Shown piece after piece: positions 7,640 through 61,613 of a DNA stretch of 64,000 nt. This stretch comes from Centroberyx gerrardi (taxonomy: Eukaryota; Chordata; Actinopteri; Beryciformes; Berycidae). The notes beneath the pieces were generated by a model, which was not told the DNA's origin, did no database searches, and saw nothing but the letters and a program-made list of their open reading frames with translations. The stretch covers positions 24,547,063 to 24,611,062 of the forward strand of contig NC_135998.1 in NCBI RefSeq assembly GCF_048128805.1, in the 5' to 3' direction. Every line of letters begins with the position of its first letter. The first letter of the stretch is position 1. Both the position numbers and the translations under genes were made by a program.

Positions 7640-8360
7640 TCAGCAGTGATTGTTTCTATCGCTCCTCTTGAGATGGCTTGTAGAGGGAGGGTGAACAATC
7701 AGTTTGTCATACCTTAGGTGGCCTATGCAATTTCTCCTCGTCGCGCAGCTTTCATAGCTGGCAACAGTTCTTTCCTTCCTTTCTTTTCCAGTTTCGGGGA
7801 AATCCTCATTGATGTAGACATTAGTCCCCTTCAATTTTTTTTTTGCCTTTTCAAGAACCATGAGTTTGTCTTTAAATCTCAGGAATTTGGCTACAATAGG
7901 CCTGGGTCTGTCACTCCTGGCTCCGCTGCCAACCTGTTTCCCAGTTTTGTGTGCACGTTCCAGTTCGATCTTCATATGCTTAAATTCAAGTTTATCAGAG
8001 AGCAGCTTAATGATTTTGCTCTCAGATTCGGCCCACGTTTCGTTTTGGCTTTCCTGGATGCCATCAAAAAAAGATTGTTTCTCCTTGATTACAGGTATTC
8101 TTTTTCCTTGAACTGATAACAGGCTCTCGCAGATTGTGGAAATGTCCTTCCTTGTGGAAATACTCTCTCGGAAAGGTTCCGTTGAGCGGTTGTCAAATTA
8201 TCAACGTTCTTCTGAGTGAACGGAAGACTAGCCTACCTTTCAACTCTTGGACATCTTTAGCTATGCTGTCCAGCCGTGTATTCATAGACTCCATGAGTAA
8301 TTGTAAGAAGCCTTTGAAATTGCGTTCTTGCGGGAGTAACATTTCCTTGTAATAGTCTCT
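7640..8360 (-). mobile_element. L1-type LINE ORF1p remnant
   Basis: The minus-strand ORF contains RPRPIVAKFLRFKDK and KLKGTNVYINEDFP, hallmarks of the L1 ORF1p RRM/C-terminal domain (Transposase_22). Upstream, toward 8340, broken frames show MESMNTRLDSIAKDVQELKG, a coiled-coil region typical of the ORF1p N-terminus. L1 ORF1p is an RNA-binding chaperone of the retrotransposon RNP. Several frameshifts lie between the coiled coil and the C-terminal domain. It ends abruptly where the plus-strand reverse transcriptase begins near 8380. Confidence 0.7.
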
Positions 8361-8379
8361 CTGCAGCACATCAGAGGCC

Positions 8380-10192: not shown

Positions 10193-10880
10193 GCAGGAAG
10201 GGCTTTCATTCACTAAACATCCAAGTTGTCTGTGACTCAGACATGAAGATAATTGACGTGGTAGCACAGTGGTATGGATCTGCCCATGACGCACACGTCC
10301 TAAGGGAGAGCGCACTGGCCAGAGTGTGTGAGGAAGGAAGGCTCCAAGGTATCATGCTTGGAGACAGTGGCTACCCTCTGAAAAAAATGTCTCATGACAC
10401 CTCTCATAGCACCCAGGACAGAGCAGGAGTGACACTACAACTACGTGCACGCAAGAACTAGATGCATTATTGAACGCTGCCTTGGAGTCCCCAAGCGCAG
10501 GTGTGTGGCTCACAAACCTTGTATTGACTAGTATAGAGGTTACTAGTTTTATAGGCTATAGAATCTGCCAATCTGACAGACTATTGAAATGAACACGGTC
10601 CTTAGTGTTTAGGTTAAATTCTGAGTTGTGCTCTCTCTGTTCTTCAAGATTTCACTGTTTGCACGGGGAAATGAGGATGGATCCTGAAAGGGTCTGCACT
10701 ATTGTCACAGCCACAACTGTGCTGCACAACATTTGCATCGAGAAGAGAGTGCCTCTCCCAGTGGAAGAAGTAGTGCTAGCGGAGGCTGAAGTGGGGCATC
10801 AGATAGCGCCTGCTGCCAATGAGGATGTCAATGGTCGACTGATCCGAAACCATATCATCCAACTGATACAAAGGCCTTAA
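10193..10880 (+). pseudogene. Harbinger (HARBI1-like) DDE transposase remnant
   Basis: PIF/Harbinger transposases are DDE nucleases. Visible are KGFHSLNIQVVCDSDMKII, WYGSAHDAHVLRES and GDSGYP (second catalytic Asp, near 10362). In a +1 frame with one TGA follow YVHARTRCIIERCLG (catalytic Glu in IERC) and a possible donor at about 10500. A last exon from about 10650 (RFHCLHGEM...VLHNICI) ends at TAA 10880. The N-terminal third, including the first catalytic Asp, is missing: the frame comes directly from the upstream reverse transcriptase (junction near 10193-10200). One frameshift and one stop also make it inactive. It is convergent with the Myb-like gene at 11130-11962. Confidence 0.8.
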
Positions 10881-14437: not shown

Positions 14438-15649
14438 ATGAAGCCGAGAAAGCGACACGTTTTGTTGTTGTTGGTGTTGATGTTCGTGTGCACTGGCATG
14501 AACGAGGCGATTGAGCCCATCAGTACCAGCATAGCAGTTGGCATGGCAGCGGCTCTCACTGGCTTTTTAGCCAGGTACCAGAATATTTTGTATTATTTAC
14601 ACGAATGCTGTCGACCGGAGTGGATTTCTTTCAACAGATCAGGTAATGTTGGGAGCATCCAGCACAGCATAAGCATAGCATAAGTCTGAGCGTTTGATTT
14701 TGAACACATCCCTAATGGCATCTGGGTATTAGGGGAATACAACTTGTGGTGTGTATCGCGTTACTTTGAAACATTCACGGTGTCATAGCGATAGGTTTAA
14801 TGTTAACCGAGCGGAGGCATCTGCTACATCGCAAATGATATAAAGTACGCAACCTAAAACTAGCATTTTCAATTTCTCAAAACGTTAAACAGTTCTGCTG
14901 TTGAATGGAACTCGTAACAACTTTGTTGTCGCATTTTGATGACGTATTAGGAAATGCGCGCTCTCGGTGGCAGGCTGGTCTGTCGAATTACGGGTGTTCC
15001 TGATTGTTATGATTATTTAATCACACAACACTACTAATGTCAGCCATTAAGTGGTTTCTACAATGAAACCAACGTGCAAATCTTTTTTGTTATACGTTTC
15101 AATCGCAAGTGTCGCGGTAAATGCGTTCGATCCATTCACAGCAACGTTTGTTGTCGGTGTTGGTGCAGCTTTAGGACGGTGGATCTATGAGTATTCTCAG
15201 GAAAAATGCGATTCCAAATGGATCGCCTTTAATTCAACAGGTGAGGACATGCACAGGGTGTGTTTGTGTCTGTGCTTTGTCTGTAGCAGCGAGTGTTGTT
15301 TTGTTGCGGCTCCTGGGATGAAGATCTATAATTGGTTACATTACAGTTGGGAGTCGAAACGGGGAGCGTGTAATGCAAACCAAGCTCAAATGCTTCAACA
15401 ACAGATATGCCCTTTCACTCCCCTTCCACATTCTTCCTGGCTTAAATTCTTCCTGCTACAGGATTTGAATCAGACCTGTTACTGATGAAATGACATCCCT
15501 TTACGATATTATCGTTTATCGTCTTTTTAGTGGAACCATATGGTGGTGATATGATGATTTTGGATACCATGGCACAGTTCTGCTGCGTAAATTGATGATG
15601 ATGAGCAAATTTTATTTAAAATCTCAAACAAAATGAGTTATGAAAGGAA

Positions 15650-15680
<31 letters not shown>

Positions 15681-18600
15681 TCAGTCTTGTTTGACATCAC
15701 ACCTAACTTTACCATTCAGTTCAATGGGATGAACATTACTTTGATTATTTAATGTGATTTTGCATTCATGAGCCATATTGCGATATCGATATATTACAAA
15801 ATTCTTGATTATTATGATATTGATTTCTATCATATCGGCCAGCCCTACTTTACAGCAATCTGCGCAGATTATTTTAATGCATTAAATTTTGTATAGCCAG
15901 TAATATTGACCTTTTGCTCTGTACTTGTCAGGTTTGGAGACGGACCTGGAACGCAAACTGTTTGGGCAGCATATAGCATCACGCATCATTCTGAAAGCTG
16001 TGACTGGATTCATGAACAATGAGAACCCAAAGAAGCCCCTGGTCCTCTCTCTGCATGGATGGACCGGCACCGGGAAGAATTTTGTCAGTCAGATGATTGC
16101 TGAGAACATTTACAAGGAGGGAATGGACAGCTCTTTTGTTCATGTTTTCACATCAGAACTTCACTTCCCGCATGCAAGTCGAATTGAGACCTACAAGGTA
16201 AGCTATGTCTTGATCTAACATTAACAATAAGTAGGCTAAGACCCTTTTTATTTAGAACTGAAATGCAGTGATTTTGTTGTGTGTTATGATCTCTAGTTGG
16301 GTCTAGGGAGATAAAGGGGAGGCAGCACAACAAGCCAACCAGATGTGACTGTAATAACAGTTTTTATTTACAGTGCCCAGTGATAGAGATAGAAAAGGAT
16401 ATGTCTATTTACACATTTACAATTGACACACACAGCTACTGGTCCACAGGTGTTGGCAAAATCAAATAACTAAATAAAACAGAACCCACACTAACTAAAC
16501 CTGTTAAGAATTCTTGCTATTAAAGCCAGGTGATTGGTGAACGATGATGACAGCTGATTGACTAATTATGATGGACGGATGAATGGACGAATCATGGAGA
16601 GCTGTTTCAGATGAAGGAAACCTCTTAGTTAGACAGAGAGAGAGAGAGACATGGGGAGGGGAGGGAAGACAAAACTAATCAAACGCAGAGTGCAAGCAAA
16701 GACATGGCACGTAATGTTCTGTTTGTCATTCCTCATTAGTGACGTACCCTATTGTTTATCCTCAGACTCAGTTGCAGCAGTGGGTCAAAGGCAATGTCAC
16801 CAACTGTGCACAATCCATGTTCATCTTCGATGAGATGGACAAGATGCATCCTGGCTTGATTGACAGCATAAAGCCCTACCTGGACTACTACGACAAGCTG
16901 GATGGAGTTTCCTATCGGAAAGCCATCTTCATCTTCCTCAGGTGACAACAGGCCAAAAGCATTTACTTCAATCAGAATTTGTCATTTGTACCAAGGGAAG
17001 GAACCGGTCCGGGGAACAAAAATGAAAATGGAAAAACAACAATAACCTGGAATTACAGGAATTAAAAATTATTTCTAACATTCTGTAACATAACCATCCT
17101 TGTGAAAGCCAAATAACTGCTTATACTCTTCTCTTATGTTCCAAAAGTTTATTAGTTTTAGTTACCGCCACCAACAGAGTTGGACGGGGGCTGTTTTCAC
17201 CCCATTCTGTCTTCAGTGTTCAGTGTTCAACACTGAACTTCAGATGTAGCGTTAGTGCTGATTATCCATGTGGTGTTGCAATAATCGGCAGAAATGCTTA
17301 AAAGTGGCTAGAATTTGAACAGGCAGATCTCATGTCATGATAAATGGTGCATCTCCTGATGTGAAACAAGTTGGTAATGTGTCATGGGAGAAATTATGAA
17401 CTTTTGGTGAAAATCCAACATGTGGAACTGGAATATACTGATAATAGGGCTGTGACGGTTACCACATTACCATTGTAGCCCGTTGTACTTGCGCAAGTTG
17501 CGGTATGTTGCAGGGAGAAAATTGCAAAAATTTCTGTCAACCTTTTTGTTGGTGGAGACAAATAACAGACAAAAATCATCTGTTGTCTCAAATTGCCAAA
17601 TGAATAGCTTTGTTTATAGAACTGTTGTATAAAAGCAATATCACACCAGAGGGAGTGCTGTTGTACTGTATATCAGTACAGCTGTGATTCGGTTGTAGGC
17701 AGGAGGCCGCAGGCTGAGTGCCGAAGATAATCACAGCCGACTTAAATATGTTCACTCTGAAGTCTGACTATTCTGTGTTGTGTTGATTTTGCTAAATGTA
17801 AACAGATGAATGAATATGAATATGTTGCCTGTTGCTGATATTCCTCATAGTAATGCTGGAGGGGAGAGCATCACCCAGACAGCTCTGGACTTCTGGACTG
17901 CAGGACGAGACCGAGAGGAGATCGAGCTCAAACACCTGGAAGTGGCGCTCTCTCTGTCGGTGTTCAACAACAAGCAAAGTGAGTAGACTGCACATTCATA
18001 CTGTACATTCTGTGGCGCTGTACCTTTAGCAGTCATCGTCACGTGAAAACTGGATTTGATAAAAACAAAACAAAATCATTCCTTCCTACTTAAGCTGTCT
18101 CCAGAGTTTCCGTTATATACATTTTGCAGCGGCGGACCGCCGCTGCAAAATTATTGCCGCCGCTGCTTCAGAATTTTATGAAATGTAATGAAGTCGCAAT
18201 TACACGACTCTGCAGAGGGCTTTTAATTTGAAACGACGGATACAGGAAGTGGCGACACCCGGCCGATGTGAGAGGGAGAGAGAGAAAGAAGAGAAAAAGA
18301 AAGAGAAGAGAGAGAAAGGTAGATTAATAAACGTTGGTAAAATAATTGCCAACGATGTTTATATAAGCTATGTATTAAAATATTCCAGATTGCATTTTCA
18401 GATGAGTTTGTTAAAATATTTCTCCAAGAAGAGAAAGATGCCTGATGTCGATGAGGAAGATAGTCAGGTAACACTTTAGCTAGGGAGGGGCTCAAGGTTC
18501 TTAGCTATGCCCCGAAGTTTTGAAGGGAAAGAAATGCCTTCTGGTTCTAAAATATGTAACGTTAGTGGTGGCTACTACAATATTTTAATGTTCTTACTGG

Positions 18601-19187
18601 TTGCGTGATCAAATATTTGTGATGTGAGAGAATTATCTAACATTACTCATTTTCAAATGTAACCTTATTAGACAAGTAGACAGGCAGGAGTAGTGGAGCA
18701 GGAGAGCAGAGCAGAGTGGAGCAGGAGAGAGGGCAGAAAGTGAGGAGAGTGGAGTATGTTCTAAAGTTTGTTTTGCAGTCAAGTGTCACTTTATTTCATA
18801 TTTTTTAATTACCTATTGATATTCACTCCGACCACTGGCGTACTACGCGCTCGCACCACCCAGGTACAACAAAACCCTTTCCCCCCGCTGCTAAAAAAAA
18901 TCCTAGAGGAAACACTGTTCTCCTTTCAATCTTTTTCTGCAGGTGGGTTATGGCATACGAGCTTGATAGACAAGAACCTGGTGGACTTCTTTGTCCCGTT
19001 CCTGCCTCTGGAGCACAAGCACGTCGTCCTGTGCGCCCTGGCTGAGATGGAAGCCAAGGGCCTGCGGAGAGACCCTGATGTGGCGGACCGGGTGGCCAGA
19101 GATCTGGTGTATTTCCCCAAGCCAGAGAGAGTCTTCTCTGTCAAAGGCTGTAAGACGATAGACAGCAAGTTGGACTACTACACATAA
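14438..19187 (+). CDS. tor1: Torsin-1-like AAA+ ATPase, copy 2 (forms 1a and 1b)
   Basis: Exon 1a (14438-14642) or 1b (15063-15240) joins exons 15932-16197, 16766-16941, 17851-17978 and 18943-19187. All junctions keep phase, giving 339 aa (1a) or 330 aa (1b). In form 1a: signal peptide with MKPRKRH then a Leu/Val run (1-21), hydrophobic segment about 33-55, sequon NRS at the exon 1-2 junction, Walker A GWTGTGKN (111-118), a second sequon NVT (167-169), Walker B FIFDEMDK (DE 179-180), sensor-1 SNAG (216-219) and C-terminal [13 protein letters not shown]. The human Glu302-Glu303 pair is P-E here. The protein is expected in the ER lumen and nuclear envelope, dependent on LAP1/LULL1-type activators. 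No defect is visible, so this is the fully intact copy. Confidence 0.9.
15063..15240 (+). CDS. tor1: Torsin copy 2, alternative first exon 1b
   Basis: This coding first exon ([20 protein letters not shown]...) ends WIAFNSTG at donor gtgagg (15241), in the same phase 1 as exon 1a. Like 1a it supplies a signal peptide, a Gly/Ala-rich hydrophobic segment ([14 protein letters not shown]), a Cys and the WIxFNxS/T sequon. Because each first exon provides a complete N-terminus, they imply two promoters about 0.6 kb apart. I prefer ATG 15063 to the in-frame GTG at 15051. The equivalent exon in copy 1 is 1704-1866. Confidence 0.8.
15510..15847. mobile_element. hAT-like MITE in torsin copy 2 intron, left end lost
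   Basis: This element corresponds to 2297-2590 in copy 1. Here the right terminus tatcggccagcccta (15833-15847) is kept and the left terminus has been replaced by cgatattatcgtttatcg. A short (AT)n run lies at 15650-15668. Confidence 0.6.
17270..17750. repeat. Copy-2-specific segment in torsin intron 3
   Basis: About 480 bp with no counterpart in copy 1 replace about 130 bp there (4170-4300). The segment includes agggctgtgacggttacc (17447-17464) and a tail caggctgagtgccgaagataatcacagcc that look like parts of dispersed fish repeats. No coding potential was seen. Confidence 0.55.
18102..18917 (+). mobile_element. hAT-type DNA transposon remnant in torsin copy 2 intron 4
   Basis: The element is bounded by cagagtttcc (18102) and ggaaacactg (to 18917), imperfect inverted ends of the hAT type (CAGWGTTTCC). 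Copy 1 has the uninterrupted site (tctcatttcaatc), and the flanks here share tctc, consistent with an eroded target-site duplication. A plus-strand ORF ends [20 protein letters not shown] at a splice donor (gtaaca, 18468), like the N-terminal exon of hAT/ZMYM-type transposases. No transposase core follows, so it is an internally deleted, non-autonomous copy. Confidence 0.7.
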
Positions 19188-19930
19188 TCTCAGCCTCTGA
19201 CGGAGGCTACTGTCCATCGCAGACTGTGTGCACTTTTTAAAAAGAGAAGCTCTCGGCCCGACCACAGAGAGGAGGAAACGAAGTCGTCTGGACTCTGAAG
19301 AGGAGATTTCTCTGTCTGACCTCGGCCGTGTCGAGGACATCAGCAGGCTTTCTCCGATGTCGCGTCTCCCTTACACTGAATGGACGGGCTGCTGAAAGAC
19401 TACAGGGGCGGTTGAATGAAAAAATAATGAGATTGGAATGGTATCCTTTGTAACTAATTAAGGTGCTTGATCCCTGCCTTTTTATGTAGTATCGCAATGA
19501 GTCTTGAAGATGATTTCCTTTTTGTTTTCCAGAGAGCTGCTGCACATGAAGTGAAGTAATTAGAAAACAGAACTGTCCTCCTGTCAATGAAACTGTGGCA
19601 TGTGACTATTGTGCATTTATGGTGCACTAAATGACGTTTTGTAGTTTTTTTTAAATGTGTTATCCATATGGATTACTAGAAATACCTGCCTTAATCCTCA
19701 CCGTTTTTAGCTATCACCATTTTCTTTTAAAACAAAATGTTACCCACTGAGCTACAGTGTGTTATGCTTTGGTAAAACATTTTAACATTTTTTTGCACAG
19801 GTCATGAGTTCATAAAACAATATCACACTCATTTTCAACAGTGTCCAAGTGCTGAAACAGAAATAATTTAAAAAAAAAGGGTCTATATGTGTCACATATT
19901 ATAAAAGCATCATACGCCATAAAAATCACT

Positions 19931-26432: not shown

Positions 26433-27110
26433 TTAAACATTTTTACACACTTTTTTTACACTACCATGCTCTTTCCCTGCTTTGTAAATAATCACATACT
26501 CATAAGCACGGAGAGTCACAGCCCACCTCTGTACTCTTGGTGAGACAATCTGGGGTACAGCTTTAACTTCACTGAAAAGGCTAATGAGAGGCTTATGATC
26601 AGTTGTAATTGTAAATCTCTGCCCATACAGGTAATTATGGAATTTCTTCACTCCAAAGACCACAGCAAGTCTCTCTCGATCCAACTGAGAATAATTATTT
26701 TCTGCCAGAGTGAATGTGCGGGATACAAACACAACAGGCTTCTCCGAACCATCAGGCATCTTATGTGACAGCACAGCTCCCACTCCATAAGGGGAAGCAT
26801 CACAAGCCAGGAGCAAGTGACCAGGACCTGTGAAGACTGCAGTAGAACTTTTGATTGTTCAAATGCCCTCTGCTGGGCAATTCCCCACCTCCACTTCATA
26901 TCCTTCTTGAGCAATAAATTAAGTGGGGCTAACAGAGAGGACAAATTGGGCAGGGAACGATGATAATAATTCAACCCCAGGTAAGCCTTCAGCTCACTGA
27001 CATTCTTGGGGATAGGTGCCTCTCTGATTGCTGCCACTTTCTCTGCAATTGGGTGCAGTCCTGTGCTGATGCTAGTTTAACACCCCTGATCTGGTGTGGC
27101 CCGTCATCAA
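26433..27110 (-). mobile_element. Ty3/gypsy RT connection and RNase H, internally deleted
   Basis: The minus-strand frames include KVAAIREAPIPKNVSELKAY and LGLNYYHRSLPNLSSLL (end of reverse transcriptase), then ACDASPYGVGAVLSH and YSQLDRERLAVVFGVKKFH, and TTDHKPLISLF (RNase H). A frameshift lies near 26820. After YKAGKEHG the coding sequence stops and, within about 90 bp, a polypurine tract appears. The integrase that should lie between RNase H and the 3' LTR is therefore deleted. Confidence 0.8.
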
Positions 27111-35200: not shown

Positions 35201-38042
35201 GGTACTCTGTGGGAGCTCTTTGAGAAACAAAGGTGTTCAGCCTCTCCTAGATGCCATCACCGCCTACCTGCCTGCCCCCAACGAGAGACACCAGGACTTG
35301 GTGTGAGTGAATTCTTGACACTGACAGAAATTGTCACAAGACTATGTTAAGGTGGTCCAGCTGCAAGAATTCTGCCATAGGATAAAGTGATCATCTCTAT
35401 AAAGGCTTTCGGTTGTTTAGGTTGCTCTAAACTTGCTCTAAATCTCTAAAATGTCTTCATTATTCATCTTCACACAGGCGGTGGTACAAGGATGACCTCT
35501 GTGCCCTGGCCTTCAAGGTTCTCCATGACAAGCAGCGGGGCCCTCTGGTTTTTCTTAGGATCTACTCTGGTACTATGAAGTCCCAGACAGCTGTGCACAA
35601 CATCAACAGGAACAACACGTAGGTGGTTCCCATTACATCCACACAGCACTCTCTGACCTGCACAAGAGCTGCAGGGTCATAGGGTCAGAGTGATTTTAAA
35701 GCATAAATCCATCCATTTGTGCATTAAACATCATTGATTGATGATTTATAACAGTGTAAAACTATCTGTAGGTGGATTTTTCCTTTGCAAGATTTAGCTT
35801 CAAGCAATCACTGAAAGACCTTATACCGATAGTAATTGATTTCCAGGATTTGTCAATGGCTTTGTGCAGTACCCCTTTAAAAATGATATATTAAAGCTGT
35901 CATTTTGTGTATCATGTGTTCTATGTAGTGAGAGGATGAGCAGGCTGATGGTGCCATTTGCTGATCAGCATGTGGAAATCCCCTCGCTAACAGCGGGAAA
36001 CATTGCTTTGACCGTAGGACTTAAGCAGGTAGAGCATCCTTCTACCTTACAGCTTGACAGAGCTGAATTTATTCCAAGTCCTACTCTTAGGTCAACTTGC
36101 CCTTACATTGTAATTTATTCTTCATTTGCCATTTTTAAGGTTCTTTTTTCCCCTCACAGAGGTAATGTTTATGTTGTTGCATATGTTTTCCCCTTTCATG
36201 TAGACAGTCACAGGAGACACCATTGTTTCATCGAAGGCTTCAGCAGCAGCCGCAGCCCGGCGGGCTCAAGATGAAGGGGGGAAAGAGAAGAAGCGTGGGG
36301 AGCAGGCCAGCCTGGTCCTGTCTGGGGTGGAGGTCCCTGATCCAGTCTTTTTCTGCTCCATAGAACCACCCACCTTGGCCAAACAGGCTGGTCAGTGGCA
36401 GTGAAACTATTATTGTTCTGAAACATATGCATTAGTTATCCACAATAGAGTGTAACTCTGTCTTAGCTAGCCATGTACATCCTGATGCCAGAATAGAGAA
36501 ATGGTGGTTGGCTATATAACTGTTTCAACAACCTTATAATCATTCATACATTGTTTTTTTTCCTGAAAGACCTTGAGAATGCACTTAACTGCCTTCAGAG
36601 AGAAGACCCCAGCCTCAAAGTCAGGGTTGACCCTGATTCTGGACAGGTAATACCATCATAGGATTTTTTTTCTTCTTTTTTTATCAGTCAGACCATCTGG
36701 CAGATTGAATCAAGTCAACTTTCGATATCATTAAATCTCTTCTCTTAGACCATTTTGTGTGGGATGGGAGAGCTGCACATTGATATCATCCATGATCGCA
36801 TCAGGAGAGAGTATGGCATCGAGACCCACCTTGGGCCACTGCAGGTGGCCTACAGGGAGACTATTCTCCAACACGTATCAACTACAGGTACAACCAATAA
36901 ATTCAAATTCATTCATTCCACATTGTTCACTCATTGCATAGTTATGGTGGCATTATGGTTGGCAACTACTGCCGAGAATATGTGAGAGATGCAATGTTAC
37001 ATCCTGTGAGGATTGTAAAAGGAGAACTACAGTTTCCCAATGTGCCCATGGTACAGAAACACTGGACCGCACGGTTGGGGAGAGAAGACATGTTGTGACG
37101 GTGGACCTGGCCATCAGCCCTGTTGCAGACATTTCAACAGGCAGTTCTTGTGACTTTTCGTTCAAAGAGGAAGTGGAGGGGCAGCTATCGCCTGAAGTGA
37201 AAGAGGCAGTGGAGAATGGAGTGCAGAGCTCTTATCTTCAAGGTAACACCTGCTGAACTCATTCCTCATCTTTTCCAAAAAGTTGCATCTTTGTGGGTAT
37301 GTGGGAGCAAACCCACGCAAATAAGCAATGAAGCCCTTTGTTTGGGATAACCTGTTGATACACACATTTTTTCAACACCTGCTCCCTCTTTCAGGTCCGT
37401 TGCTAGGTTACCCTGTACAGGGTGTATCTACCCTGATCCAGAATGTCGGCATGGAACCAGGAACGTCTCCAGCCATGGTGTCTGCCTGTGTGTCTCGCTG
37501 CATGCTTAAGGTAAACCGTTACAACTTGCTATGGCAAAACCATAACATATTATTAGCTTGTAAATAGATGAGCCACAGTTCAGTATATTCCTATGGACAC
37601 AGGCCATGAGGCAAGCAGGCGGGCAGGTCCTGGAGCCTGTGATGTCCCTGGAGGTGACAGTAGGGGAGGAGCACCTAAGCTGTGTGCTGGGGGACTTGGC
37701 CCAAAGACGAGGAGCTGTCAGAGACATCCAGAGTCGTCATGACAACAAGGTGCTGATAGCCACGGTGCCCCTGGCTGAGATGATGGTGAGTTAAGGATGG
37801 ACCATAGGAGGCTCTAATTTAAAAAATCTAGTACATTTGGTTCTGTAGTGGTTTTGTTTACCTTGTCCCTCCAAAACTTGTTTACTAATTGACTCTGTTC
37901 CCACCCTCCAAAGGGCTACTCCACCATCCTACGAACATTGACCTCTGGAAACGCCACCTTCTCCCTGGAGCTGGACACCTATGAGGCCATGAACCCCCAG
38001 GACCAAAGTACCCTCCTCAAAAGAGTGGCCGGTCTGGTCTGA
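32266..38042 (+). CDS. gfm2: GFM2, mitochondrial elongation factor G2 (EF-G2mt)
   Basis: GFM2 is a mitochondrial translational GTPase that, with the recycling factor MRRF, splits post-termination ribosomes. Twenty exons: 32266-32307, 32404-32488, 32594-32639, 33010-33107, 33232-33357, 33980-34068, 34181-34269, 34373-34433, 34675-34860, 34979-35059, 35154-35302, 35478-35618, 35929-36028, 36204-36390, 36570-36646, 36749-36887, 37057-37242, 37395-37510, 37603-37785, 37914-38042. They sum to 2310 nt, 769 aa (human 779). The N-terminus is Arg/Lys-rich and acid-free, like a mitochondrial targeting peptide. G motifs: AHIDAGKT (66-73), ERERGIT switch region, DTPGH (130-134), NKMD (184-187). Domains II-V follow with [40 protein letters not shown] and a C-terminal [13 protein letters not shown]. 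All junctions are canonical and in phase. Confidence 0.96.
33411..33905. mobile_element. hAT-type dispersed repeat with gacttg satellite in gfm2 intron 5
   Basis: The segment begins cagaggtggggactcgagtc, a start I recognise from many fish repeats of the hAT class. It continues with many imperfect copies of gacttg/acttgact, and ends near a last acttgagac at 33893. The right inverted end is not intact. Confidence 0.6.
33941..33972 (+). repeat. (TG)n tract at gfm2 exon 6 acceptor
   Basis: An almost pure TG repeat runs to within 8 nt of the 3' splice site of exon 6 (exon start 33980), so the usual pyrimidine tract is reduced to atttcag. Confidence 0.9.
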
Positions 38043-38576: not shown

Positions 38577-41500
38577 TCAGATACCTTTGTACTCACGGGG
38601 GCAATAACTGGAAAACAAAGGCTCAGCTGGGATCCCACGCCTTCGATAAGAAAAGATAGTTATCGATTAGATGTGGATATAAAAGTTATGTTTCTTCATT
38701 CTCATTTATCAGACATTGATATCATACCAGTGGGAGCGCAAGGGACTTACATAATTATTACATTCAAGGATACAAACATTAGGATTTTAGGTATGTAAGG
38801 CACTTAAATTTCCCCTTGGAGAACAATATTTGTTTAAATGCAGATACACTGTGTGGAATCCCTCTTCTTGCAGGACTACAGATACTCACGCAACCATGCG
38901 ACAGCGGTGCGCCGACAGTCTGCTGTAGGCGTCGTTGACGTCGGTCACTTCCTTGGCGCTCCACAGCCGCTCTGCCACGGCGCTGGCACGAGGCCTGGGA
39001 GAGAGGGAAAGAGGAAAAAAACATTAAAGCGACTGGATATGGCATCTGATGTATCAAGGTCCAACAGGTTAAATTCAAGTGCGCCCTTTGTGATTTATGA
39101 GTTTAAAGGAATCACATGATGATCCATACCAGAGTCTGGGCGTCAGGTTGGTGGCGTCCACATATTCTCCCCACAGACAGGCCTCTCCACCAATCACAAG
39201 CTTCTTCTGTGCGTCAGTCCCTGTGTCAAATCAAGTTTAATATTCGATCAGATCAGACAGCACAAGGAGAGTCCAGGGAGTTTAAAACCCCCATAGACTA
39301 GGTAGATACAGAATTGAAAATGTGAATTTAATTGCACAAGAATTATTTGGTGATTTTCTCCCCTCTGACTCAAATAATACGGTATTTCCCTTTTCTTCAT
39401 TCAACAGGCTTACATGTATTCGCACAGGAGTGCCAAAAAAAACCAAAAAAACTTTTCAGATCTGTCACATGAATCGAAAAAGCAGCTGATCAGTCTGGGG
39501 CAAACTGACAACAGAACAATAAAACATAACCATAAAACTAAGGCAACAGTCCTAACAGTGAGTCCAGTGAGTTGGAAATTTACCAAGGCTGGAGCAAGTT
39601 CAAAACTGAAAAGAGAAATAAAGCAATGTTGCAGAAACTGACAAAGGCCAATAAAATTGACAGTAAAAAACAACAGAGTATCCCAAGGACATCTGTTTGC
39701 ACTGGCATCACACTCTTTTGTGACGTTAAAGGGTAACTTCGGTATTTTTCAACCTGGACCCTATTTTCCCAACTTTTTGTGTCTAAGTAACTAATGGGGA
39801 CAACAATTTTTTAAATTGGTCCAGTATTGAGCGAGATCGCGTCAGCCGGCAGCCGCGAAACAGGCTGCAATGTAATCTGAGGGGGCAAATCGCACCGTCA
39901 ATGTACGTCCACTAAAAGTGCTTGTTTTTGCCACTGACAGGCTCAGATTGTTATAAGTGTCTGACAACATTATGGAAAGGACCCTACAGAGAAATGAAAT
40001 GTTTTTCTTTACCTTTCGCTTGATCCGGTCTGTTTGTTATTGTGTGTAACCAAGTCTTATAGGCTTATAGCCTATTTCACAAGCCTACGCTTACAAAACA
40101 CAACACCAGCCTATAGAAAGAGTAAACTACAATGCACCATGTACATTTACCAAGCTTTTGGCTCCGTTAATTCACCGTTTTTAACCGAGACCGGGGCCAA
40201 CAAGTCGGTCCAACTCTCTAGACAAAACCACGACACAACTTTCAGGGACCATAACGGCCATCCAGCGGGGAGATTACCGGACTACCGAGGCTACTGTTAC
40301 TTACCCCAAGCCTCCACCGGGGAAATGGTCCCTTTACCAGGCGAGCCGTCCCATCGCCTCCCCGCCGCCGTCCTGCTTCTACACCCCGGAGGAAGTTGTT
40401 TTTCACGGGGACCCGACTCTCCCACCCTCATCGGAGCGGATCGAAAACGATTGTTTTCTGTACGGTGGCGCGGTTTATAACGCTCCCGGTCCGCGTTATC
40501 ACGCCCAAGCGTTTGCTGGAGCCCTTCGGACTTTCCCAGCCCCCTCCGGTTTCAACCCGTTCTTTGAGGCGACTGAGGGAGGGGGTCCCGAAACGGAGAG
40601 AGAGCACACCGGGGAGCCGCCGGGTACACGAGGCGAACCGGTCCCAGTGGAGAGACTGTCACAGCGGGGAGAGGAGCGAACAGAGGCCGGGGTCAGAGCC
40701 TCTCAAGGCGGGGAAGGAGGATGAGGAGGACGCGGCTTTATCCAGCAGCACTGAAGAGGACAGTAATGGGCCAAGTAGGTGGAAGTCATACAGATTGTCT
40801 AAATAAATAAGTATAATAGGCTAAATAAATATATCATTATATATAGATTATAATAGGAGATTGACTTGTACACAATAACAAACAGACCGGATCAAGCGAA
40901 AGGTAAAGAAAAACGTTTCATTTCTCTGTAGGGTCCTTTCCATAATGTTGTCAGACACTTATAATAACAATCTGAGCCTGTCAGTGGCAAAAACAAGCAC
41001 TTTTAGTGGACGTACATTGACGGTTCACAATTGCCCCATCGGATTACATTGCAGCCTGTTTTGCGGCTGCCGGCTGACGCGATCTCGCTCAATACTGGAC
41101 CAATTAAAAAAATTGTTGTCCCCATTAGTTACTTAGACACAAAAAGTTGGGAAAATAGGGTCCAGGTTGAAAAATACCGAAGTTACCCTTTAATAAAACA
41201 ATCATGCAGACACAAACCCTTGAAGTCCTGCGGGTCGGCCTTGTACACGCCCTGCCAGTCCTGGCCGTAGGAGATACGGTTCAGGTACCAGGGAGTGGAG
41301 AGCAGGGTCTGGTACCCTGCTGATGTAACCTTTGCCATCTCATTCTGGTATTGCTGCTGGTTCCCTTTCCACACGTGGATAATTGTGTCTGGTTTCAGCT
41401 ACACAGCACACATACATACATACAAGCTTTTAGTACCAGGAACAGCAAGATAAAATAGAAAATATCAGGAGAGGCTTTCATTAAGTAGTTTGATGAGTAC

Positions 41501-44500
41501 ATTCAAGACACTGATGTGTCGTGAACTGAAAAGATGAGTCTAGTTTTTCTCCTGTTTGTGTTCCTTATCTTTTAAATTATGTGCAGAACATTACAGCATG
41601 TCTGATGACCTGATGGGAACCAAAAAACAAAGCGCTGACTGGTTAGTCAAAGCTGTAGACCAATTTCCATCGTGGTCCAGGTGATCACGCGTGGACGAGT
41701 ACTGCGAATGGATTGATTAAGCCTAACGGGTTAACAGGTTGAACTAAATGCAAACCAAGAAAGAACCAAAAGAAACCAAAAACCAAAAACAAAAATTGCC
41801 AACCAACCCCACCACCCCATGCTGACTCTCTTCATGTCTGACACTGACTCTCCTGCCAACGCCTTGTCACAGCTGTGCAGTTTTCAAACGTAAGCCTGTT
41901 GAACGAAGTCTTTAGAATTTTCCAAGCTGCAGAAACCAATCTGACATCCTCCGGAGAGGATTGTTTACCATTTGAGCCGATACAAACATTAGACACCCTT
42001 CTTATGAAGACTGACCCTTGAAGTTCAGCGGATCAACCTCGTAGTACTTCTTCCAGTCCTGTCCGTAGCTAATGTAATCTAGGTACCAGGGGGAGGAGAG
42101 GATGGTGGTGTAGCCTGCTGCCGTCACGTTGTACATCTCCTCCTCCAGCCTGTTGCCCATCCACACATGCACTACTGTGTCTGGCTTCAGCTGTAATAGT
42201 CACAGGCCAAACTACTGTACTCAGCTTAGACACTATATGACTTGTTTGTGGTTAGCACGGGATGAAGAGCAAAATTAATGCAAGTCATTTTCAAACAACT
42301 AAAACCAAAGCGTAAATCATAAAACCACAGCATGATTTTGAAAAATGACCCATAAATTGTGATTGGATATTAAAAAAAGAACATGTCACATTTTGTACAG
42401 TACGTTAGGTCTAGTTAGCATGCAACAAAAGTATTGCATTTCAATTTTAGTGTAAACTTCATGGTAATAATATGGAATTAACTTGCCGAGTGTTGCATTT
42501 CTCTTCAGTTACCTTAACGCCGTTGTCAAAGACCTCCTGCCAGATCATGTAGCCCTTCTTGGTCGTGGTGACGATATCCAACAGTCTATCAGATCATACA
42601 AGAGGAGAAAAACAATTCATTTCCTTTTATAGGGACTGAAATTTGGAGAATGTGAGATTTCTCTACTAGTCTCACATTGAACTATCACCATATTTCTGCC
42701 CATATTTCTCTCTGACTTAACGCACCTTTGGATGTAGAATGATTCCAGCTTGCTGTAGTCCTGTCCGAAGCCTTGCTGATCCATGAACTTCTGAATATCC
42801 GGGTTGGACTTCCTGCAGGGGAGAGCGAAATAGCACTTCATATCAGATGTTGACTCATATTATCATCATCTCGACCATATCCTGCTGATGAAATGTAGCA
42901 GTCATACTCTTTGCCACAGATATGGGAGAGTAGTTTTTGTGAAAACAGTCTCACCAGCAGCTGAAGTCGACCTCGTCGCCCCCCAGGTGGATGTAGGCGT
43001 CAGGGAACACGATGCTGATCTCCTTGAAGAACTGGCCCATGAAATCGTAAGTGGTGTTCAGGATGGGGTTGACTGGTCCGAAGGAGCCGGAGGGAGTGGG
43101 CCCGGAGTAACAGGGTGTGAGCAGGTCTTTCTGGCCTGAGAGGGAAAGAGGTGTAGGGGATATGTTTGTCACGCTTCACTGCTTTCACTTGATGACAATG
43201 ACGACAGGTATTTTGAAAGAAAATCCATTTTAAGTTGCTTCATTAGGAGGGCGACCCGACTCACATTTCTCTCCAGCAACACCTGCAAAAACTCACCTTT
43301 GCCCCACGACTGTGTGTGCCCCGGGGTGTCAAACTCGGGGATGACGCGAATGCCTCTCAGACGGCCAAACTCAATGACCATCTTCACGTCAGCGGGTGTG
43401 TACACATGTGTGTATGGGTGGTAAGCTCCCTGTAAACACAGTTCAGTGAAGAAGCTCCTTAGCTCTGATGGATATGAAATACTCAACTTTTCTCTACTTT
43501 GTATTCAGCTGTACAGATCTTTCCATCAGTCAAATATTTATACACAAATAAACAATGACACTGACCTGCTGGCTCAGCTGTGGAAAGGTCCGGCTCAGGT
43601 AAGGGAAGGACTGATCATCCACAATGTGCCAGTGGAATACATTGAATTTGTTCATCGCCATCGCTTCCTGCGTCAAGTGAAGAGTAAAATATGAGGAAAT
43701 GCGCTACTTTCGGGCACAATGAACTAAAACTGAGAAGACACGATAAGAAGGCCTAACTGACATACCAGGTTCGCCAAGATGACTTTAATGGGCAGGAAGT
43801 GACGAGAGCTGTCCAATAAGATTCCTCTGTGTGCAAATCTTGGGAAGTCACTGATTGTGGTCGAATTGATGCTTTTCTGAAAGGAGACAATGTCAATCGG
43901 CATGAGTCAAATCCAGGCTTACAAGAGGGTTGACACTTTTCTTTTGAATGAGCTGAAATGCATGCAGATACACAATAAAGCAAGACTCTCTGGGTCAGAA
44001 CATTACAATTAACTTACAGCTCCATATTCATCTTCATACACCAACTGGCTGAAAGTTTCAAGACCTAAAACGAAGGAAACAAGCCACAAATGAAACTCAT
44101 ATGAAAGATTGTTGGATGTTTTTATGACACCATAAAACTACAAGTTGCCTTATGCCACACACTAGATATGTGTGCAAAGTTCCACTGTGATACACACTGA
44201 ATAGTGTGTAAGGTCAATTTTCAAGGAGTGACGCCAAATTGGCATCACAGTGCAAAACAAGGTACAAAACCACATTAGACTTCACATTTTATCAGCCCGA
44301 TAGCTTTTGGAGGCACAGGTATTACTCATACAATTACAAGTTACACATACACTGGCTACACTGTCACTTTCAGAATTGATTTAAAGATTCTTCTGTTCAC
44401 TTTAAAAGTTCGTCTAGGCCTGGCGCCTACCTACATGTCAGATCTGTCCCATTTCAGATCCCAGTGAGCCTGAGATCGTCAGGCAGAGCTCTCCGTTCCT

Positions 44501-46016
44501 CAGTCTCCACTGAAAACTAAAGTTGACCGGGCATTTGCCATTAGACCTCCTGCACTTTGGAACAGCCTGCCAGAGGAAATTTGACTAGCAAAGTCTGTGT
44601 CCTCCATCAGATCACTTCTCAAGACACACTTCTACACACTGGCCTTCATGTAATTGTTTTATCCTGTTATATTATATTATATATATATATTAAATATTTT
44701 TTTAAAAATGTTTTTGCCCTGTGCTTTCTATTACTGTCTGTCAATTGTATTACTGTCTGTCTTCTGTATGGCTGTCTGTCTTTCTTTTTTGAGTTGTTTT
44801 CTGTAAAACACTCTGTAAACTTTTTATAAAGTGCTATACAAATAAAGTTTATTATTATCGTCTATTATCATCTATCCCATCTATTATTACACAACTGCAT
44901 GTTACACATTAAGTTTTCATCTGTGGTCATGTATGGGTAATGCCATGAAGTGTATTTGTATCCCTTGCTGTGAAATGGTGCAGTAACAGCAGAGAGCCCT
45001 ACCACGCAGAGCTCCCCACACCTTCGGTGCTTTCAGCACGGCGTACGGCTGGTCCACTGACAGCTCATCTGCAGAGACAAAACAGTGTGCATGGCCTTAG
45101 AAAACAACATTTCTTCTTATTCCATCACTAATAGTTTTCAGTCCTGTCACAGCTTGGCAGGGGTTATTATAGTACAGCCGACTGATGTAAAGTCAGAGTC
45201 TTTAGCGCTCAGGGGGGTTTGGTCTAAATTAACCTCGTTAACCCTTGCAGTTTCTGTCCTGTAATCTCTAATTCCAGTGGCAGACCTGAGCACACTCCCA
45301 GTCCCTGGCTGTAGCAGTTCACATGTACAGAATCAGGTAGATTCTAGGTTACAATGCAGAATATTTTTAAACAGCCTAAACAGTACATGAATCATGGCAC
45401 AGGATATGGATAGACAGGTCTGTCCTGCTGACTGTGGCCATGATAACATCATGCTACTTCCTCTTCCGCAGAATCACCAGCATCAGGAGGAGACTCACAT
45501 GACTCGTCAGATGTCACACTGGGGTGGCTGTCGCACTCAGAGTCAGGTGATGTGATCCACACCTGTAGCTCCGACAGCTCGGACGGGCCTGACCCCCTGC
45601 CCTTGTAGTCCCCCGTCTTTCTCGCGCCGCCAAACATGTATTCATAATACCTGTCGAGTGGGAAAAGAAAACATAATTGGTCATCACTGTCACGTTTCCG
45701 GACGCAGAACTACATGCAGGCAAAACCGAGGAAAACAAACCAAAACATATATAGCTTCCTACCTCCTGTACGCATTTTGCAGAAGGCTGCAGCTCGCGCC
45801 CGCAGATGACTCTTCGGCGTCGACAACTTTGAAGCTAGAGCTGGTGAGTTTGAATGAAACCTCTGACATCTGCACTTTCTGTGGCAGAGGCCAGAGGGAG
45901 CCGTACTTTGAAGGCTCGTCGTCACGCGCATCCTCTCCGAAGATATCGTTGTAATTACTTCCCCGGCAGGCCGCAACTGCCAGCAGCAGTACCGCGAACT
46001 TCAGGCTCGCTACCAT
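38577..46016 (-). CDS. hexb: Beta-hexosaminidase subunit beta (HEXB)
   Basis: Hexb is a lysosomal GH20 enzyme that removes terminal GlcNAc/GalNAc from glycans and glycolipids. Exons (minus): 46016-45763, 45650-45499, 45068-45003, 44064-44018, 43876-43766, 43667-43566, 43429-43297, 43135-42955, 42812-42726, 42585-42513, then either 42190-42016 (A) or 41398-41218 (B), then 39220-39130, 38994-38890, 38640-38577. Total 546 aa (A) or 548 aa (B); all phases fit. Seen: signal peptide ([13 protein letters not shown]), [14 protein letters not shown] then [46 protein letters not shown] with catalytic D342-E343, [21 protein letters not shown] and end YCPREYKGI. Overall it is HEXB-like ([25 protein letters not shown]), but [16 protein letters not shown] resembles the alpha-subunit loop. 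The neighbours gfm2 and enc1 support HEXB. Confidence 0.96.
39726..41193. mobile_element. TTAA-flanked DNA transposon with ~325-bp inverted repeats in hexb intron
   Basis: The left end TTAAAGGGTAACTTCGG (39726) is the reverse complement of the right end at 41177-41193. The inverted match continues about 325 bp inward (to about 40052 and from about 40867), including gagcgagatcgcgtcagccg and gctcagattgttat. Only a few mismatches are seen, so the element is young. TTAA at both borders fits the target duplication of piggyBac or Kolobok superfamilies. The centre (40053-40867) is unrelated, GC-rich sequence without a transposase. The right border is 24 bp from the donor of hexb exon B. Confidence 0.85.
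40140..40780 (+). other. GC-rich, coding-like cargo inside the TTAA element
   Basis: The interior of the transposon is GC-rich, against AT-rich surroundings. Two plus-strand frames are open for long stretches (40034-40480; 40396-40806); a third reads [29 protein letters not shown] and [14 protein letters not shown], and another ends [18 protein letters not shown] before agtag|gtggaa, a possible donor (40776). It looks like a frameshifted first exon of a Pro/Ser/Glu-rich protein. I could not identify the source. Confidence 0.4.
41218..41398 (-). CDS. hexb: hexb alternative exon B (alpha-type active-site residues)
   Basis: This 181-nt exon (3n+1) starts CTG at phase 0 and ends AAG-G, exactly like exon A 618 bp upstream, and encodes the same stretch of the GH20 barrel ([14 protein letters not shown]...). 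It has [13 protein letters not shown]: Asn442-Arg443, the pair of human alpha Asn423-Arg424 that binds negatively charged substrates. Exon A has D-Y here. The acceptor (gctgtgtag) has a TG-rich rather than pyrimidine-rich tract. The donor is non-optimal (G|gtttgt), so use is probably regulated or low. Including both exons would shift the frame. Confidence 0.85.
42016..42190 (-). CDS. hexb: hexb alternative exon A (beta-type active-site residues)
   Basis: This 175-nt exon (3n+1) encodes [14 protein letters not shown]...[17 protein letters not shown] and PLNFKG. Asp440 matches human beta Asp452; the next residue is Tyr441 where human beta has Leu453. It contains the sequon NVT (423-425), which exon B lacks. 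Splice sites: acceptor attacag, donor G|gtcagt. It is the probable default exon of hexb. Confidence 0.9.
44385..44870 (+). mobile_element. LINE 3' end (CR1/L2/Rex1-like) in hexb intron
   Basis: Broken frames encode the last conserved block of fish LINE reverse transcriptases ([11 protein letters not shown], then [18 protein letters not shown]-like). A 3' tail follows, gtgctatacaaataaagtttattattat (44831-44858), ending in ATT repeats. It is inserted antisense to hexb. Confidence 0.7.
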
Positions 46017-59060: not shown

Positions 59061-59843
59061 CTTGTTTAACTGGCTAGGTATACCATTATTGATTGCAGAA
59101 AGTGTTAGAGTTGACCTTGAGGGGGTAAATGGGACTGTTTCCTAGATCATATATTTAGTGAAGCCTTTTCAGACTGCCCTCTCAGCAGGTCTAACTAGTG
59201 CTTTATTTTTATAGAAGTCCTCAAAAACCTTTAAGGTTGATTATTTACCTTGAGACTGTACCATTGACATGCAGCGGTATTCCAGTTTTATTACTGTTCC
59301 TATAAATGTAAATTTATCTAATAGCAGCACATTCAGTATAACAGTAAACATATTATACACCAAGAGTCTAAATTTTCTAAAAAGCTAAATAACAACTGAC
59401 ACTGACCAGATTTAATGAGTTTACTTTTAAATTCTATTCATTTTGTAAAAAAGTGGAAAAATTAAAATAATCAAATTAAAGAAATTGTATACTTACCTGC
59501 CTTTTTTCCTTCTCTTCATTGGTCTTGGTTGAATGTCTAAGTGATCAGAAATCCTTTATGAGGGGAAGATGGTCTTTGTTCTCCTTCACTACAAAAATTA
59601 TTCAATTCAATTCAATCAAGATTTGTTGATATTCTTGAAATCTTAAGTAACCAGTAGTAGAATACAAAACATCCCACACTGTAAATCCTATCGTAATTTC
59701 CTTTCAAAGCTGCAAAATTTCTCGGGAGTAAGAATGGTCAGCAAAAACATTGTAGAACTCTGTCAAACTGATATTATTTTTATAATATGGAATATAGCTA
59801 AGAGAGATTTTCCTTGTCTGTTCTTTTTCAGGATTCAATGAAA

Positions 59844-61613
59844 ATGTCCGTGTGCGTCCATGAGAACCGGAAATCACGTGCCAGCACTGGCTCTATGAAC
59901 ATCTACCTGTTCCACAAGTCCTCTTATGCCGACAGTGTCCTCATGCACCTCAACTCGCTGCGGCAACAAAGACTTTTCACAGATGTCCTGCTTCATGCTG
60001 GTAGCCGTTCCTTCCCCTGCCATCGTGCTGTGCTGGCTGCCTGCAGCCGCTACTTTGAGGCCATGTTCAGTGGTGGCCTCAGGGAGAGCCAGGCCAGCGA
60101 GGTTGACTTCCGCGACTCCATCCACCCAGAGGTCTTAGAGCTACTGCTGGATTATGCGTACTCTTCACGTGTGGTCATCAATGAGGAGAACGCAGAGTCG
60201 CTACTGGAGGCCGGGGACATGCTGGAGTTCCAGGACATCCGGGATGCCTGCGCTGAATTTCTAGAGAGGAACCTCCACCCATCTAACTGCCTTGGCATGC
60301 TGTTGCTGTCTGACGCTCACCAGTGTACCAAGCTGTCAGAGCTCTCCTGGGGCATGTGCCTCAGCAACTTTCCTGCTATTTGCAAGACAGAGGACTTCCT
60401 CCAACTCCCCAAAGACATGGTGGTGCAGCTTCTGTCCCATGAGGAGCTGGAGACAGAAGACGAGAGACTGGTTTATGAAGCTGCCCTCAACTGGGTCAAC
60501 TACGACCTGGAAAGGAGGCACTGCCACCTGCCAGAGCTGCTGAGAACGGTCCGGCTGGCCCTGCTGCCCGCCATATTCCTCATGGAGAATGTCTCCACAG
60601 AAGAGCTGATCAATGCCCAGGCCAAGAGCAAGGAGCTGGTCGATGAGGCCATCCGCTGCAAGCTGAAGATCTTGCAGAATGACGGTGTGGTTAACAGCCC
60701 CTGTGCTCGACCGAGAAAAACCAGCCATGCCCTCTTTCTGCTGGGAGGGCAGACCTTCATGTGTGACAAGCTGTACCTGGTGGACCAGAAGGCCAAAGAG
60801 ATCATCCCCAAGGCGGACATCCCAAGCCCCAGGAAGGAGTTCAGCGCCTGCGCCATCGGCTGTAAGGTCTACATCACAGGTGGGAGAGGCTCAGAGAATG
60901 GTGTGTCCAAAGACGTATGGGTCTACGACACTGTCCATGAGGAATGGTCCAAGGCAGCACCCATGCTCATTGCCAGGTTTGGTCATGGCTCTGCTGAGCT
61001 GAAACACTGCCTGTACGTGGTAGGAGGTCACACAGCAGCAACTGGCTGCCTCCCAGCCTCTCCCTCCGTGTCCCTCAAACAGGTGGAGCAGTTTGACCCA
61101 GTGGCCAACAAGTGGACCATGGTGGCTCCTCTGAGAGAGGGTGTGAGTAATGCCGCCGTGGTCAGTGTCAAGCTCAAGCTCTTTGCCTTTGGAGGAACCA
61201 GCGTCACCCATGACAAGCTGCCGAAGGTGCAGTGCTACGACCCACAGGAAAACCGATGGACTGTGCCTGCATCCTGCCCACAGCCCTGGCGCTACACGGC
61301 TGCTGCTGTGCTGGGAAACCAGATCTTCGTTATGGGCGGCGATACCGAGTTCTCGGCGTGCTCAGCTTATAAGTTTAGCAGTGAGAGCTACCAGTGGACT
61401 AAAGTGGGCGATGTTACGGCCAAGCGCATGAGCTGCCAGGCTGTGGCGTCGGGGAACAAACTGTATGTGGTGGGTGGTTACTTTGGCACGCAGCGGTGTA
61501 AGACTCTGGACTGCTATGACCCCACACTGGATGCTTGGAACAGCATCACCACTGTGCCATACTCCCTCATTCCCACCGCTTTCGTCAGCACCTGGAAACA
61601 TCTCCCTGCCTGA
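59844..61613 (+). CDS. enc1: ENC1, BTB-BACK-kelch adaptor (ectoderm-neural cortex 1)
   Basis: ENC1 is an actin-binding kelch protein of neural tissue and a substrate adaptor for CUL3 ubiquitin ligase. One exon (acceptor ctttttcag at 59823-59831) encodes 589 aa from ATG 59844, the same length and start as human (MSVxVHENRKSRAS). An in-frame ATG at 59838 would add M-K. Order: BTB about 35-140 (TDVLLHAGSRSFPCHRAVLA, CSRYFEAMFSGG), BACK about 145-250 (LLSDAHQCTKLSELSW, ETEDERLVYEAALNWV), six kelch repeats about 290-585 with Gly-Gly pairs (LLGGQTF, ITGGRGS, VVGGHTA, FGGTSV, MGGDTEF, VVGGYFG), ending FVSTWKHLPA. No break is visible. Confidence 0.98.
   Translation: MSVCVHENRKSRASTGSMNIYLFHKSSYADSVLMHLNSLRQQRLFTDVLLHAGSRSFPCHRAVLAACSRYFEAMFSGGLRESQASEVDFRDSIHPEVLELLLDYAYSSRVVINEENAESLLEAGDMLEFQDIRDACAEFLERNLHPSNCLGMLLLSDAHQCTKLSELSWGMCLSNFPAICKTEDFLQLPKDMVVQLLSHEELETEDERLVYEAALNWVNYDLERRHCHLPELLRTVRLALLPAIFLMENVSTEELINAQAKSKELVDEAIRCKLKILQNDGVVNSPCARPRKTSHALFLLGGQTFMCDKLYLVDQKAKEIIPKADIPSPRKEFSACAIGCKVYITGGRGSENGVSKDVWVYDTVHEEWSKAAPMLIARFGHGSAELKHCLYVVGGHTAATGCLPASPSVSLKQVEQFDPVANKWTMVAPLREGVSNAAVVSVKLKLFAFGGTSVTHDKLPKVQCYDPQENRWTVPASCPQPWRYTAAAVLGNQIFVMGGDTEFSACSAYKFSSESYQWTKVGDVTAKRMSCQAVASGNKLYVVGGYFGTQRCKTLDCYDPTLDAWNSITTVPYSLIPTAFVSTWKHLPA

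Follow-up and report, generated by a model that had tools for sequence, protein, structure and literature searches.

Does the hexb gene of the fish Centroberyx gerrardi encode one subunit of β-hexosaminidase (Hex), or can it supply two with different active sites by exchanging a single exon? The gene lies in a 64,000-nucleotide (nt) stretch of contig NC_135998.1 (positions 24,547,063 to 24,611,062 of the forward strand; hereafter the window, numbered from its first letter) and carries exon 11 twice, as neighbouring copies 11A and 11B. In human Hex, the chief cause of the different charge preferences of the α- and β-subunits is one pair of residues, Asn423-Arg424 in α against Asp452-Leu453 in β (PMC3587417). 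A preliminary description of the window had proposed that exon choice would switch hexb between β- and α-type active sites. The residues encoded at the site support this as far as sequence goes, in that hexb appears able to encode either a β-type (Asp) or an α-type (Asn-Arg) site; that isoforms A and B would also differ in specificity is likely, an expectation carried over from human biochemistry.

The two copies are adjacent homologous exons, both intact, with AG acceptors and GT donors, the same phases (0 on entry, 1 on exit) and lengths of the form 3n+1 (Table 1). The hexb coding sequence is open with 11A alone (546 residues) and with 11B alone (548 residues). Including both puts the first stop in 11B, 318 nt upstream of the last junction; using neither puts it in exon 12, 169 nt upstream of that junction. 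The copies agree at 36 of 58 residues and 118 of 174 nucleotides. Their BLOSUM62 score of 207 (best of 1,000 shuffles, 15), together with a divergence of 0.32 at nonsynonymous (dN) and 1.03 at synonymous sites (dS), excludes chance likeness and marks them as old duplicates. On the exons outside exon 11 the gene groups with HEXB in a tree of 29 whole proteins, which separates HEXA from HEXB with branch values of 96/93. The coordinates, phases, 3n+1 lengths and preceding exon end (42513) given in the preliminary description all agree with ours; the motifs it quoted for A and for B were confirmed, with NR in human α and DL in human β at the site, and the exons are, as it had stated, intact, diverged and frame-breaking when included together.

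Transcripts with an early stop far upstream of the last exon junction are usually degraded. Those that include both exons or skip both would be frame-shifted and are expected to meet this fate, so that the reading frame itself would enforce a choice. Alternative use of 11A and 11B is very likely, and we infer that the two are used exclusively of one another in cells. We propose that hexb gives rise to two Hex subunits through one or the other of its tandem exon 11 copies: 11A would supply a β-type site with Asp, suited to neutral substrates, and 11B an α-type site with Asn-Arg that should admit 6-sulfated and sialylated substrates, GM2 among them.

Comparison with human HEXA and HEXB, the α- and β-subunits of this GH20 enzyme, is in keeping with the proposal. 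The fold is the same, and among PDB sequences the best score of 11A is with human HEXB (74.7 bits; HEXA reaches 54.2). Exon 11B scores about equally with HEXB (62.2 bits) and HEXA (61.1 bits), its top match being 5BRO, the engineered HexB variant modB (66.2 bits), and despite these near-equal scores it has the HEXA residues Asn-Arg at the switch position. The two site types, which come from two genes in human, would here come from two exons of one HEXB ortholog. Human α also has a GSEP loop that serves the GM2 activator. The corresponding fish loop, encoded by exon 8 and common to both isoforms, reads SGPTPSGSF; it is unlike that of human β (SRQNKLDSF) and close to that of α (SGSEPSGTF), with Ser-Glu not kept.

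Isoform B would therefore combine Asn-Arg with an α-like loop, which makes the engineered human subunits modB and mod2B its closest parallel. The preliminary description had named HexM instead, reportedly an α-subunit base carrying β interface residues. HexM does share the format of a single subunit whose homodimer acts on the GM2-activator complex (PMC10002607), but the β-based modB/mod2B (5BRO; PMC13198282) stand closer to a form with NR and a GSEP-like loop. Two replacements in human HEXB, DL 452-453 to NR and RQNKLDS 312-318 to GSEPSGT, distinguish the therapeutic mod2B (PMC13198282). The likeness thus extends to a β backbone with both NR and an α-like loop; the engineered forms are designed and carry GSEPSGT, whereas the fish loop reads GPTPSGS. 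A predicted structure of zebrafish hexb-B (P0102) has a mean predicted local distance difference test score (pLDDT) of 86.3, and in a Foldseek search against the PDB its first match is 5BRO, with an E-value tied with that of human Hex A chain B. A fuller version of the GSEP+NR homodimer reduced GM2 in mice (PMC13198282). That an isoform B homodimer would act on GM2 seems a fair bet.

Both exon types are widely distributed. Three protein searches (the best 120 of 559, 325 and 257 matches) gave 310 distinct proteins, identified by P numbers, which form the base for all counts. The regions other than exon 11 class 165 of them as HEXB-like and 145 as HEXA-like, with three close calls (P0166, P0179 and P0154, the last without a motif), and class A or B was assigned by D or N at the switch position. 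The preliminary description would have counted decay of exon B in relatives, or a lack of transcripts joining it, against its own proposal. Instead, 136 of the 149 listed HEXB-like B-type rows (one of them an amoeba) read N-R, the others being N-V (6, sharks and rays), N-Y (4, including the amoeba outgroup P0179) and N-H (3). Many teleosts, Danio, Anguilla and Arapaima among them, have B-type hexb, as do sturgeon (P0099), frogs (P0121-P0132), sharks and rays (P0136, P0149, P0152, P0155-P0157) and a chimaera (P0187). The 32 listed A-type rows, with D throughout by definition, represent amniote HEXB as well as hexb of teleosts, frogs (P0164, P0178) and a chimaera (P0177). Of the fused HEXB-like predictions, 17 have both motifs, one of these being from a frog (P0052), and A comes first in every one. 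As for transcripts, two hexb-B entries from other fishes (P0017, P0075) are contigs of 1984 and 2110 nt encoding 563 and 564 residues; at about 2 kb they are too small for a genomic 14-exon gene and look like complementary DNA (cDNA) with exon B spliced in. Many entry names already distinguish isoforms X1 and X2 of subunit beta, so databases contain such isoforms, mostly as predictions. The amoeba protein (Stereomyxa), with Asn-Tyr at the switch position, has an exon 11 close to that of vertebrate Hex, which may reflect contamination or a shared ancestral state.

The pair is no peculiarity of hexb. It recurs in hexa of the same fish, and the choice is probably older than both genes. A search of this genome (779 Mb) returned the two hexb exons and two further matches on another contig, C4, within a complete hexa coding gene. 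The hexa pair equals the hexb pair in position, order (A then B) and lengths (175 and 181 nt). The hexa frame is open with either copy (534 and 536 residues) and broken with both or neither, and the A form is identical at 524 of 534 residues to P0195 of Centroberyx affinis. About 6 kb 3' of hexa a nuclear-receptor gene starts; two fish gene predictions fuse the two genes, and one of them is named photoreceptor-specific nuclear receptor.

In other teleosts the hexa A form reads SVVEVW...PWYLDQPGPTHNW and the B form TVLHIW...PWYINHISYGQDW. One or other form is present in deep teleost branches (Conger P0290, Megalops P0296, Aldrovandia P0310/P0307, Albula P0309), and in three characin and cyprinid predictions (P0192-P0194) the A exon leads directly into the B exon, with PFYLD in the A exon of the two in which that stretch was read. 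Four cDNA-like contigs carry hexa-B (P0268, P0280, P0286, P0306). Fish hexa-B has Asn-His in 56 of 56 listed rows (52 named fishes and 4 contigs), so that among the rows listed the α-like Arg of teleosts is carried by hexb. Fish hexa-A is more altered: it keeps the Tyr and the Asp and has lost the ISYGQ residues, including the positions of Ile454 and Tyr456, which are dimer contacts (PMC2492878). The model of P0195 still matches the human Hex fold, with a mean pLDDT of 78.1 and values below 50 at 422-433 (the altered stretch), 382-389, 465-468 and near the ends. A subunit made with this exon may pair differently or be changed in activity, and the conservation of the exon across teleosts suggests some use.

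Table 1. Features of the hexb gene in the window and of the hexa gene on contig C4.
Feature	Position	Strand	Basis or remark
hexb coding part	38577..46016	minus	14 exon positions, exon 11 twice; assembled open reading frames; HEXB side of constant-region tree (96/93)
hexb exon 10, common to both forms, 5' of the choice	42513..42585	minus	
hexb exon 11A, 175 nt, β-type, PWYLDY	42016..42190	minus	human HEXB closest; within A group of trees
hexb intron 11A-11B, 617 nt, GT-AG	41399..42015	minus	
hexb exon 11B, 181 nt, α-type, PWYLNR	41218..41398	minus	among B rows of both exon trees
hexb exon 12, common to both forms, 3' of the choice	39130..39220	minus	
Codons Asp-Tyr (11A), place of human β Asp452-Leu453	42074..42079	minus	alignment
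Codons Asn-Arg (11B), place of human α Asn423-Arg424	41276..41281	minus	alignment
hexb exon 8 loop SGPTPSGSF, common to both isoforms	43080..43106	minus	aligned with human α SGSEPSGTF
hexa, complete coding gene	C4 14236068-14243283	plus	two exon 11 copies
hexa exon 11A, 175 nt	C4 14240659-14240833	plus	
hexa exon 11B, 181 nt	C4 14242178-14242358	plus	

How the two pairs are related was approached through trees of chosen subsets, 59 and 81 exon 11 segments in addition to the 29 whole proteins. In the 59-segment tree all 19 A exons, from chimaera, teleosts, frogs, a bird and mammals including human, lie on one side of a branch (99/98), which places the A/B split before the living jawed vertebrates. 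The 81-segment tree puts hexb-A and hexa-A on one side of a branch (97/91) and all B forms together (76/66), with fish hexa-B a separate group (100/99) apart from HEXB-B and weakly joined to amniote HEXA (88/47). In the tree of shared exons, fish hexa stands beside amniote HEXA. Other characters follow exon class in both genes. Between VW and PWY lie 23 residues in nearly all A rows (31 of 32 for HEXB, 63 of 63 for HEXA), and a spacer of 25 is the commonest in B rows (94 of the 145 HEXB-B rows measured, out of 149, and 69 of 82 HEXA-B rows). At two positions the commonest residue also differs by class, being Glu in A and His in B at one and Ile in A and Leu in B at the other, in a comparison from which the B segments of fused predictions and of the amoeba (16 rows) were excluded. 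Taken with position, order and lengths, the tree, spacer and class residues make one exon duplication before the HEXA/HEXB duplication the best account, and we regard it as probable that the exon duplication is the older event. The gene duplication has been placed after the divergence of tunicates (PMC2492878). The same paper calls vertebrate Hex genes universally 14-exon, so the extra exon went unnoted there.

Several observations weigh against parts of this account. The exon 11 trees comprise 64 columns, about 60 residues, with a single amoeba outgroup. Approximately unbiased (AU) tests on the 59-segment tree reject no arrangement, wherever amniote HEXA is placed (p 0.37-0.55), and holding the A exons with amniote HEXA is 1.74 log units better than the free search. 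The class residues are only majorities (75-98% at the Glu/His position), the window's own 11A having His, and the Asp/Asn column is circular, since D and N defined the classes. For the 81 segments, the AU tests do not reject a group of fish hexa A and B, whether alone (p 0.217) or together with amniote HEXA (p 0.399). In plain pairwise comparison hexb-A comes closer to hexa-B (score 157) than to hexa-A (113), at 26 of 58 identical residues in both. These last results, like the convergent tandem exon duplications reported in other gene families (PMC9741552), would suit separate duplications of exon 11 in hexb and hexa after the gene duplication, the A/B differences then having arisen twice. We consider such a history unlikely: the lower pairwise score can be put down to the far divergence of hexa-A, the A exons of both genes are grouped by the tree, and not only position, order and lengths but also spacer-length classes and class residues are equal in the two genes. 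Still more improbable is hexa as the source of exon B in hexb, through gene conversion or transfer of the exon. The N and the LLS stretch that exon B has in common with HEXA exons might suggest it, but this source fits poorly with the rest, as fish hexa-B is a group of its own with N-H where hexb-B mostly has N-R, and exon B is also present in hexb of sharks and frogs.

The functional reading, too, has points against it. HEXB-B exceptions to N-R occur in sharks and rays (six N-V rows) and in a few teleosts (six rows with N-Y or N-H), and among the listed matches the A forms of lineages that have both exons are all gene predictions. The fish hexa-A form, without ISYGQDW and poorly modelled there, may not be a normal enzyme. 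In one study, moreover, a human GSEP+NR homodimer, H1, and a more extensive hybrid, H2, failed on GM2 with the human activator protein (PMC3587417). A real switch might accordingly serve something other than substrate charge, such as subunit pairing or stability, with N-R secondary; exon 11 does span the dimer-contact residues Ile454 and Tyr456 (PMC2492878), and neither the N-V of sharks nor the N-H of fish hexa-B is the α pair. We rate this as a minor but real chance, given that N differs from D between the copies of both genes and that the contact stretch ISYGQDW is identical in 11A and 11B of the window. Scarcely credible, finally, is that exon B is a poison or decaying exon sending transcripts to decay and nothing else: inclusion of both exons does yield an early stop, but a transcript with exon B alone stays in frame, jawed vertebrates have conserved the exon, and the full-length cDNA-like contigs P0017 and P0075 carry it without A.

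Amniotes appear to differ from fishes and frogs in having divided the two exon types between the genes. The seven listed amniote HEXB proteins are all of D type, as is an eighth, mammal-like protein (P0159). All 26 listed amniote HEXA rows read N-R, in searches none of which was aimed at exon A of HEXA, and the amniote B-type rows are HEXA only. No amniote B-type HEXB is among the listed matches, although B-type queries should rank such proteins high. Human HEXA has the B-type exon and human HEXB the A-type exon. The listed rows, with D throughout in HEXB and N-R throughout in HEXA, fit a history in which amniote HEXB lost exon B and amniote HEXA lost exon A. The proposed history would begin with a single exon duplication, followed by the HEXA/HEXB duplication in early vertebrates and then by complementary amniote loss, HEXA keeping B and HEXB keeping A. 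The pair is present today in the hexb genes of cartilaginous and ray-finned fishes and of frogs, and also in teleost hexa. We are fairly confident of this explanation as a whole, in which exon choice gives hexb two site types, the pair is ancient and its complementary loss in amniotes came later.

How the choice between 11A and 11B might be made was addressed by examining their surroundings. A 617-nt intron exceeds the length for simple steric exclusion, and this mechanism was rejected. Incompatibility between U2- and U12-type splice sites was likewise rejected, all hexb introns being GT-AG (as judged from the splice-site dinucleotides), and so was a distant branch point, the nearest upstream AG lying 21 nt (A) and 28 nt (B) away with no long AG-free zone. 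RBFOX-type TGCATG motifs number 3 in the 3,292 nt around both exons against 1.6 expected, which is not significant, and the other motifs counted around 11A and 11B are near expectation. The intron between 11B and exon 12 contains a recent-looking inserted element (39726-41193) with long inverted ends (arms of 163, 98 and 61 nt, 98-100% complementary).

Published work touches on these genes at several points. A damselfish study lists hexb among the genes whose splicing differed during a heatwave; its main text gives no event type (PMC8933327). Zebrafish hexb mutants lose >99% of Hex A + B activity (PMC6772114), the zebrafish hexa gene has been targeted (PMC10002607), and two HexA 'isoforms' with reading frames of 546 and 490 residues are reported from a prawn (PMC12192582). 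Our literature searches on the hexb/hexa exon pair, whose coverage of the relevant papers was incomplete, found no description of it.

The remainder of the window contains several other genes and gene pieces. A single open frame at 59802-61610 encodes a BTB, BACK and kelch-repeat protein, which we take to be enc1-like; enc1 is presumably near HEXB in human also. Beside hexb, on the plus strand, elongation-factor-G-like exons (36500-38042; EFG_C match of 25.7 bits, just below the Pfam cut-off of 27.9) presumably belong to gfm2, again a gene that we assume to lie near HEXB in the human order. Torsin-like gene pieces, apparently of more than one copy, occur at 4536-5292, 15051-16215 and 18765-19605, with Pfam matches for 15910-16215 and 18765-19184, and open frames at 8285-10458 and 26436-27076 resemble, by eye, the remains of retroelements.

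Two known phenomena frame the finding. Tandem duplicated mutually exclusive exons are likewise neighbouring and homologous, mostly ancient, and often differ in one or two functional residues (PMC9741552). That survey concerns human genes, and HEX is absent from its main text, as expected if human lost the pair. Splice forms can also be shared out between duplicate genes, each keeping part of an ancestral set (PMC5306129, with fish mitf in its reference list). What sets the HEX case apart is its subject, an enzyme active site in two genes linked to human disease, and the fact that teleosts keep both forms in both genes.

A bolder reading can be offered tentatively, with somewhat more doubt than assurance: the division of labour between α and β in human Hex A may have begun as a splice choice within a single gene before the vertebrate genome duplications. 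Opposite losses in amniotes would then have made separate loci for Tay-Sachs and Sandhoff disease, and the choice would still operate in frogs, ray-finned fishes and sharks. In fish, a homodimer of hexb-B, which has an α-like loop of its own, would be a natural one-gene GM2 hydrolase comparable to those designed for gene therapy. If the proposed history is true, it would explain the origin of the α/β specialisation of a medically central enzyme and provide a clear case of a splice choice divided between duplicate genes. Fish models would have to be reread, as in the listed teleost rows the Asn-Arg site is encoded by hexb and hexa-B has Asn-His. Because hexb encodes both site types, the zebrafish exon 1 hexb knockout (PMC6772114) should remove both, and isoform-specific hexb knockouts become possible. 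A stable natural β-type homodimer with an α-type site would also be a ready comparison for modified HEXB therapies, the human subunits concerned being those of Sandhoff and Tay-Sachs disease.

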